Source: a virus. From it: 64,000 nucleotides of DNA. Positions 19,162 through 54,701 of the stretch are shown one piece after another; the first letter of the stretch is position 1, and each line of letters opens with the position of its first letter. Under the pieces are notes generated by a model. The model was not told the DNA's origin. It ran no database searches and saw only the letters and a program-made list of their open reading frames with translations. The position numbers and the translations under genes are program-made. Location of the stretch: positions 1 to 64,000 of IMG/VR virus record IMGVR_UViG_3300035698_007281; one strand, 5' to 3'.

Positions 19162-19190
19162 ATTATCGGGTGGGCCAACCAAGATGCCAA
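19162..19190 (-). promoter_or_regulatory. Sigma70 promoter cassette
   Basis: TTGGCA (19190-19185), 17-bp spacer, GATAAT (19167-19162), leader ACTCTCAGTGAAGCAAACAA. The -35 differs by one base from the other copies. Confidence 0.8.
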
Positions 19191-41481: not shown

Positions 41482-41745
41482 CTAGAACTCCAAGGCCTGG
41501 AGGCCCAGTTCGTCGGCCGACATCCCGACGGTATCGAGTTGCGGCTTCCCGCCCCAGTACACGTCCGACATCTGGCCACGGCCCTGGGCCATCCGGACGA
41601 TCACGTCGGTGACCTGGACGGTGGGATCCTCGTTGAACTTCGAGGAGGACAGGTAACGGATCAAGTCGTCGTGATTCTCGCGGTTGGCTTCCAACATCTC
41701 AGTGAGGCGGACGACCTGGGCTTCCAGTTTCTTGATGTGGTTCAT
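41482..41745 (-). CDS. Small coiled-coil protein, unknown
   Basis: 87 residues, N-terminal coiled coil (HIKKLEAQVVRLTEMLEANR) and a C-terminal mixed part (RGQMSDVYWGGKPQLDTVGM). ATG 41745 with AAAGG. It lies downstream of an unusually long, structured leader (41781-42050). No family recognised. Confidence 0.6.
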   Translation of the reverse strand: MNHIKKLEAQVVRLTEMLEANRENHDDLIRYLSSSKFNEDPTVQVTDVIVRMAQGRGQMSDVYWGGKPQLDTVGMSADELGLQALEF

Positions 41746-41780
41746 GGTGAGGCCTTTCCGGTTGGGGTTGGTTTCGGTTG

Positions 41781-42050
41781 TCATCGACGAGCGGTGATAT
41801 TGTCCCGTGTCGGGTCTTGTCCGGCGGGCCGCCTGGGCGGTTCTTATCACTATCCGTTTGGACCGGCGCGACGTTGTTATCGCGTCACCTTCGCCGATGG
41901 TTTGTGACACACCGCCGGGCGTCTCTCTGAGACTACCTCTGCCTTTCGCGGACAGAACTCCGGATGGGTGAGAACCTGGGTCTTCTCGGCTGTCTACTGG
42001 CCTTGCCCTTGCGGTCACCTTCCCGGCGGTGTGTCGTATTCGGTTGTCAA
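41781..42050 (-). ncRNA. Candidate structured non-coding RNA or leader insertion
   Basis: Unlike the other cassettes, which have 35-60-nt leaders, this one has about 320 nt. On the minus strand GACACACCGCCGGG (42035-42022) pairs perfectly with CCCGGCGGTGTGTC (41919-41906), a 14-bp stem. It encloses three hairpins: GAGAA/TTCTC near 41987-41970, TCTGTC/GGCAGA near 41956-41938, and GTCTC/GAGAC near 41933-41921. Downstream, GTGATA (41850-41845) pairs with TATCAC (41798-41793), enclosing CCCG-ACA-CGGG. The insertion is bracketed by copies of GACAACCGAA (42048 and 41782). No convincing coding frame was found in it. Confidence 0.6.
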
Positions 42051-42070
42051 TACGTCATTCATCTACAAAC

Positions 42071-42099
42071 ATTATCGGCCAAGGTGGATCATTTGTCAA
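42071..42099 (-). promoter_or_regulatory. Sigma70 promoter cassette driving the structured leader
   Basis: TTGACA (42099-42094), 17-bp spacer, GATAAT (42076-42071). The following bases (GTTTGTAGATGAATGACGTA) do not match the common GTGAAGCAA leader; similarity returns at ACAACCGAATACGA, after which the structured segment begins. Confidence 0.85.
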
Positions 42100-42181
42100 G
42101 AGGAAAATAAGAAAAACTTCGGCCCATAGAAAAGGCCCCCCGGTTGGCGGCCGGAAGGCCTGGGGCGCTGAGTTGGTTTTC

Positions 42182-42571
42182 TCAATCGTCCGAGATCTCC
42201 AGGGTGAGTTGGAGTTCGTCCAGGAGGGCCTGGGTCAGGGGGTCGAGGAACGCCCCGTTGAGATCTTCGGCGGCCATGGCGGACTCCAAACCATCGTTGG
42301 ACGGGACCCCGTTGTATCGGTAGTGGACGCCCTCGGGGAGATCCTGTTCCCCGTCGGTCGGCCAGTCGTCGAAGTCGGTTGGGTCGGCGTCGTGCATGAT
42401 CTCGTCAATCACGCACTCGTAGGCCTCCTCCCAGGTCGAGGCCCGGACGATCCCCAGGACCCCCAGGGGTTCCCGGTAGATCCACAGGGGGCCGAACCCC
42501 GCGTCCCAGATCCGGATGGGGGAACCGAAGCGCGTCTTCGCTCCGCTGAGACTCTGGTCGTCGGCGATCAC
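42182..42571 (-). CDS. Acidic protein, unknown
   Basis: 129 residues, acidic (VIDEIMHDADPTDFDDWPTD), with an N-terminal strand-rich segment (RIWDAGFGPLWIYREPLGVL). Its start overlaps the membrane-protein stop upstream (ATGA). No family recognised; could be a small inhibitor-type early protein, which is speculation. Confidence 0.55.
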   Translation of the reverse strand: MIADDQSLSGAKTRFGSPIRIWDAGFGPLWIYREPLGVLGIVRASTWEEAYECVIDEIMHDADPTDFDDWPTDGEQDLPEGVHYRYNGVPSNDGLESAMAAEDLNGAFLDPLTQALLDELQLTLEISDD

Positions 42572-45841: not shown

Positions 45842-46178
45842 TCTGTTCTCCGTTCTTCTTGGCCCAGTATAGCGACCGGGGTTGATATTCGGCGCGCAAC
45901 TACTAACGCTCGTCGGGGGCTTGCGCCCCCTTCTCACGCTGGGTGTCGTTTTTTGATTCTCGTGGGTTCTCTCCCCCTAAAGGGGGAGAGAACTAAGGGG
46001 GTTAAGGGCCTCAGTTTGGTAAGGGTGTGGAGATCCTCTGAATAATCAGAACCCACGAAAAAATTGGATTGAGAAAAATTACATACCCCTTGATGAGATT
46101 CTCTGAGGAAACTTTGAGGGGACCCTGACCCTGGTCGGTATAGTGTGCTGGCACCCAAACCGAAGGAGATCCACCAAC
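45842..46178. promoter_or_regulatory. Divergent non-coding region with nested inverted repeats; origin/control candidate
   Basis: 337 bases without a gene between divergent operons. It holds: a perfect 12-bp hairpin GTTCTCTCCCCC-taaa-GGGGGAGAGAAC (45966-45993), with no T-run on either strand; an outer inverted repeat CGTGGGTTCT (45961-45970) and AGAACCCACG (46048-46057); GGGGGCTTGCGCCCCC near 45914-45929; and an AT-rich stretch at 46040-46085. Outward -10-like hexamers are CTATAC near 45868 (minus) and TATAGT near 46140 (plus), with poor -35 boxes. Confidence 0.6.
45966..45993. repeat. Perfect 12-bp inverted repeat (hairpin)
   Basis: GTTCTCTCCCCC / GGGGGAGAGAAC around TAAA in the divergent intergenic region. 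No adjacent U-tract, so not an obvious terminator; it could be extruded as a cruciform or bind a dimeric protein. Confidence 0.75.
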
Positions 46179-54528: not shown

Positions 54529-54701
54529 TGGAGTACCCAACATGCCCTGATTGTGGGTTTGAGGACCAGGACTGGTGGGACGGCCTCGGCAACAAGGGCG
54601 ACGGTGATTCCTGGAAATACGACTGTCCTGGGTGTGGGAATAGGTTGAAGGTCACCCTGTCACTATCCCCTGAGTTTGATACTGTACTTGTCGAAGGATG
54701 A
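54528..54701 (+). CDS. Small zinc-ribbon protein
   Basis: 57 residues. TCPDCGFEDQDWWDGLGNKG then YDCPGCGNRLKVTLSL gives two CxxC knuckles. Coupled to the preceding gene by TGATG. Acidic tail. Unknown role. Confidence 0.6.
   Translation: MEYPTCPDCGFEDQDWWDGLGNKGDGDSWKYDCPGCGNRLKVTLSLSPEFDTVLVEG

Follow-up and report, generated by a model that had tools for sequence, protein, structure and literature searches.

A structured, apparently non-coding insert in an early phage leader and a sister leader carrying a tRNA T-arm

What is the extra sequence that makes one early leader of a tailed phage about 320 nt long, when the leaders of its sister promoters mostly measure ~35–60 nt? The initial annotation of this locus had pointed out the disparity, which is borne out by the coordinates, and had proposed the additional segment as a candidate new non-coding RNA. 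The window analysed here is a stretch of 64,000 bases, equivalent to bases 1–64000 of a virus record of 93511 bases. The full record repeats itself at its two ends, which makes a complete phage genome probable, and it harbours tailed-phage genes for a portal, TerL, a tape measure, a DNA polymerase and a UvsX-like recombinase. The nearest relative in the collections is 73 kb in length and shares ~32–58% protein identity in core genes; TerL identity is 50–53% in a few other contigs.

The leader under study, designated E1, extends on the minus strand from a promoter at 42099–42071 to an ATG at 41745. The promoter, TTGACA-N17-GATAAT, is near-consensus with 11/12 matches, its initial description as the strongest promoter type reflecting consensus match only, and belongs to a family of about a dozen in the genome, whose leaders mostly start with AGTGAAGCAAACAACCGAACAC or nearly so. 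A terminator-like hairpin at 42133–42161 on the same strand, consisting of 11 pairs (8 of them G-C) followed by a T-rich tail and likewise recognized by consensus match only, separates the E1 transcript from the preceding gene. At three other promoters of the family, 40793 and 43790 on the minus strand and 60583 on the plus strand, an ATG lies six bases past the −10 box in the frame of the gene, a placement that, as read from the sequence, suggests leaderless mRNAs in the phage and its host.

E1 begins with a 32-nt block, GTTTGTAGATGAATGACGTATTGACAACCGAA (42039–42070, minus strand), that ends in the first copy of GACAACCGAA. This motif occurs exactly twice in the window, at 42048–42039 and 41782–41773, and the insert is bracketed by two exact copies of TGACAACCGAA. 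Two domains follow the block. The first, D1 (41906–42035, minus), is closed by a perfect 14-bp stem in which 42035–42022 pairs with 41919–41906 around a 102-nt loop with three predicted hairpins; the stem starts ~36 nt past the −10 box, inside the non-coding leader. The second, D2 (41782–41899, minus), is a predicted fold with a closing stem of 9 bp plus 5 bp around several hairpins. Immediately 3′ of D2 lies the second TGACAACCGAA copy (41773–41783, minus), and the remainder of the leader (41746–41772, minus), which accommodates the ribosome-binding region (AACCGGAAAGGCCTCACC), resembles the leader ends at 19190 and 40793. The downstream gene (41482–41745, minus) encodes an orphan protein of 87 aa, with a codon score of 0.47 that is typical of the genes of this phage, and no Pfam match and no relative in viral contigs were found for the protein. 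The insert is confirmed as a real feature at this place on the minus strand, and the description of E1 in the initial annotation, including the perfect long-range stem and the flanking copies of leader sequence, proves accurate.

Is the predicted fold more stable than chance would provide? The E1 element as a whole displays a z value of ~−5, with 0/100 shuffles equally stable. In the fold of the full leader the closing pairs of D1 and D2 have an overall probability of 0.83–1.0, the values being 0.92–1.0 for the D1 stem and 0.96–1.0 for the outer stem of D2. D1 with its stem reaches z −4.6 to −5.2, as against −0.4 for the 102-nt interior alone, and D2 reaches −3.8, as against −1.4 for its interior. 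The closing helices therefore exceed chance, and it is mainly from them that the excess stability of E1 stems, whereas the three hairpins highlighted at the outset, although predicted within D1, are no better than those of shuffled sequences. In a genome-wide fold scan based on fixed 250-nt windows, E1 shows a z value of −2.8 and is not top-ranked; its signal emerges when the scanned segment fits the stems. The top fold of the scan resides elsewhere, at 90801–91050 of the genome on the plus strand (L007 11801–12050), with a z value of −5.8.

The closing stem of D1 can also be judged by its rarity. With a stem of 14 bp or more and a loop of 20–300 nt as limits, the genome has two inverted repeats, compared to 0.075 expected from shuffles. 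Six unrelated phages, examined as a control and totalling 295 kb, contain four perfect inverted repeats within these limits, indicating that the shuffle null is too lenient and that the 14-bp stem of E1 is by itself not remarkable on a genome-wide scale. The stem is notable for its position in a leader and for a 24-bp sister in the sole similar leader. Other repeats were encountered during these surveys. In Stenotrophomonas phage Philippe (L058 20329–20436), a 15-bp inverted repeat with a 78-nt loop and a strong predicted fold is located in an unannotated stretch past the tRNA cluster and, going by the folding model, may represent an unannotated RNA. A 14-bp inverted repeat with an 81-nt loop, followed by a T run, is situated just upstream of a gene near TerL in the relative G001 (L014 10195–10303). 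Within the window, an 11-bp inverted repeat at 45960–46058 (77 nt), with a strong inner hairpin and T or A runs on each side, sits between divergent gene blocks and may be a two-way terminator.

The sister stem belongs to the leader at genome position 87100 (minus strand, L007), the sole other leader with the variant 5′ block of E1, GTAGATGAA-N5-TATTGACAAYCGAA. This second leader, with its tRNA-derived content, is the chief addition to the initial annotation. The two 32-nt blocks align without gaps, the E1 block scoring 18/32 against that of E2 and at most 9 against every other leader, and there is no third copy in the genome. The E2 element (genome 86913–87042, equivalent to L007 7913–8042, minus strand, outside the window) is a perfect 24-bp inverted repeat that starts 30 nt past the −10 box and has 82 nt between its arms; no longer repeat with a loop of 20–300 nt exists in the genome. 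The insert is set between leader-motif copies ATTGACAATC and ATTGACAACC. Directly beside the closing stem, inside the repeat, lies a tRNA T-arm, GTGGGTTCGAGTCCCGC, with a TTCGANT loop. It is 14/15 identical to the tRNA-Met of the phage and matches both this tRNA and the phage tRNA-Glu, with 0/300 shuffles as good. The stacking of the T-arm on the stem points to an RNA of tRNA type. ARAGORN calls no tRNA in E2 and no gathering score is reached, the Rfam matches, to tmRNA and mascRNA, staying below threshold and spanning the T-arm. Outside this arm the predicted fold of the E2 interior is no more stable than those of shuffles (z −0.3). The gene downstream of E2 has a weak SprT-like match.

Beyond the 5′ block and the overall plan, the interiors of E1 and E2 have no common sequence. 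The T-arm is absent from E1, and no tRNA was found within the window, E1 included. As the contents are unrelated, it is the helix and the block that are kept rather than the interior sequence, which suggests that the essential part of the plan of the two elements is the closing helix.

Additional tRNA-related sequences are present in a non-coding region on the plus strand at genome 82300–83400 (L007 3300–4400), which contains tRNA-Met, tRNA-Glu and several tRNA-like pieces. These include a 139-nt tmRNA-like match of 47.7 bits (gathering score 47) that appeared in some runs only, a tRNA-like stretch at 83044–83114 that is sub-threshold and has a long acceptor stem, and, at about 82605–82735, a stretch resembling tRNA-Leu whose variable arm is oversized. 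Their resemblances indicate that they are possibly a mini-tmRNA and degenerate tRNAs.

Might the inserts then be relics, that is tRNA-derived or mobile sequence that landed in a leader and is tolerated there, functionless now? The sub-threshold pieces in the tRNA region, the T-arm of E2 and the direct copies flanking the inserts, TGACAACCGAA in E1 and ATTGACAAYC in E2, which would be the trace of insertion, all fit such an origin. Nevertheless it appears rather unlikely: perfect stems of 14 and 24 bp would decay if unused, the inserts are without common ends and hence are not copies of one mobile element, and both accompany the same special 5′ block.

A different possibility is that the insert is translated, either as an extension of the 87-aa protein or as short frames translated from the start of the transcript. 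The frame of the downstream gene does stay open across E1, a 51-codon frame is open from the ATG in the 5′ block of E2, and the three family promoters with an in-frame ATG close to the −10 box (40793, 43790 and 60583) would accord with the use of such starts. However, an open frame across the insert has a 9% chance of arising in shuffles, and the frame that starts at the 5′-block ATG of E1 ends after 15 codons. Codon scores in E1 are −0.23 or lower in every frame, the frame of the gene standing at −0.23, in contrast to 0.38 ± 0.15 in gene stretches of the phage, and the score of E2 is low too. A coding insert is thus very improbable, and the most reasonable view is that E1 codes on neither strand; the earlier statement that no frame is convincing was right in substance, even though the gene frame is open.

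An equally slight probability attaches to an element that operates at the DNA level, such as a replication origin or a recombination site whose inverted repeat acts in double strand. A perfect inverted repeat placed between direct repeats in the early region might be read in this way, yet there is no change of skew at E1, the ends of the repeats differ between E1 and E2, and E1 and E2 each sit within a transcribed leader, at a set distance from its promoter.

Several known classes of RNA and mobile element were also considered. A search of Rfam 15, which the initial annotation had recommended as a check, revealed no match to any family, with none in the window at gathering and nothing meaningful for 41600–42200 at E values up to 10. 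An antisense RNA of the C4/CI type found no support, as the duplex energies of E1 with 11 other leaders are ordinary compared to those of 300 random stretches. A retron RNA was discarded because the genome has no RVT_1 match, and a TnpB-associated RNA because the sole match to a TnpB domain, at 54540, is sub-threshold and leaves no convincing partner gene. The arms of E1 and E2 are unrelated and without common terminal inverted repeats, at variance with a mobile element of MITE type. Being structured, non-coding and without an Rfam match, the insert may fairly be called a candidate non-coding RNA, as originally proposed, whereas the evidence for a new class is thin; the interpretation offered at the outset is, in this respect, partly supported.

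The explanation preferred here, as a tentative first choice, is that E1 and E2 represent a cassette present in two of the leaders, whose long helix would loop out a small RNA domain to be released by nuclease cleavage. The transcript would start at the near-consensus promoter, pass through the fixed 5′ block GTAGATGAA..TATTGACAACCGAA and, in E1, fold into the closed domains D1 and D2 held by long helices, after which the leader would resume with the leader-motif repeat, the ordinary ribosome-binding region and the gene. E2 would follow the same plan with one domain, its 24-bp helix holding the tRNA T-arm. A host nuclease of the RNase III or RNase P type would then cut the helices, freeing a small RNA and leaving an mRNA with a processed, translatable 5′ end. 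RNase P is reported to cut C4 RNA, which is phage-derived, along with other tRNA-like RNAs (PMC11143913). In favour of release, the sole two leaders with the variant 5′ block hold the sole two repeats of at least 14 bp (loop 20–300 nt) in the genome, 30–36 nt past the −10 box; both inserts lie between copies of a leader motif; and E1 is non-coding by codon usage. On the other hand, the D1 stem, at 14 bp, is short to be cut efficiently by RNase III, inverted repeats of this length are not rare in phages, the interiors fold at chance level, and RNase P would be disfavoured by the full pairing of the E2 stem.

A further point against release is that no terminator-like site was found on the minus strand between the E1 insert and the gene, so that E1 is primarily the leader of an mRNA. 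The same observation lends weight to a reading that is nearly as likely, in which the leader acts in cis only: its 5′ stems would shield the early mRNA from 5′-end-dependent decay while the ribosome site stays open, or would respond to a factor, and no separate RNA would be produced. The ribosome-binding region of E1 is only weakly paired in the predicted fold, which fits this role, and the unrelated interiors of E1 and E2 suit a function that resides in the stems only. However, most sister leaders manage without an insert, and two large domains and a tRNA T-arm exceed the needs of a stabilizing hairpin.

Do related phages harbour comparable leaders? Relatives were traced through core genes (portal, TerL, UvsX and others), and their genomes, read for promoters and inverted repeats, contained no such promoters or leaders. 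The E1 sequence retrieved nothing relevant from phages and plasmids, and the promoter and leader patterns gave wrong-context matches only in viral contigs and genome contigs. Across these four collections no homologue of E1 emerged by sequence, by promoter/leader pattern or by downstream protein, the protein scans using short exact peptides, a format in which relatives can be missed.

Should the cassettes be excised as RNAs, a single type of phage promoter would generate both mRNA and structured RNA, and the two copies with unrelated contents would suggest that early leaders have a modular slot for RNA genes. Should the cis reading be true, E1 and E2 would offer a clear example of leader helices tuning early mRNAs. 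The T-arm on the 24-bp stem of E2 provides a concrete lead on origin. A bolder extension of the release model, and quite a long shot, is that phages have a class of early-leader RNA cassettes of which E1 and E2 would be the first two members, and in which a fixed 5′ block precedes helix-closed, partly tRNA-derived domains that would be cut free as stable RNAs acting on the translation of the host or on its tRNA-targeting defences, the rest of the transcript serving as mRNA.

How do these elements compare with known systems? The C4 RNA of phage P1 and the CI RNA of satellite P4 act through complementarity to leader sequences. Both are small and arise by processing of phage transcripts (PMC7567579, PMC11143913). 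Like them, E1 is located at the start of a phage transcript, is structured and non-coding, and is a candidate for processing by nucleases of the tRNA type; unlike them, it has no complementarity signal to leaders and no Rfam match, and it is two to three times longer. The PLE IIR transcript is by measurement the most abundant transcript of PLE, is complementary to leaders and has been suggested to play an antisense role (PMC7567579). E1 resembles it in being non-coding and flanked by inverted repeats in a phage-related element. GOLLD and ROOL are ornate phage non-coding RNAs of unknown role (PMC7567579, PMC12286853) and are several times larger than E1, which has no match among Rfam families. 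As regards tRNA and tmRNA, the T-arm of E2 is like that of the phage's own tRNAs, yet ARAGORN makes no call there and E1 is devoid of such an arm. In rRNA precursors, long helices formed by flanking inverted repeats loop out RNA domains and are then cut. The stems of E1 and E2, of 14 bp and 24 bp, differ from these helices in that cleavage is here proposed by analogy; the architecture is nonetheless alike, a long perfect helix looping out an RNA domain in each of the two leaders.
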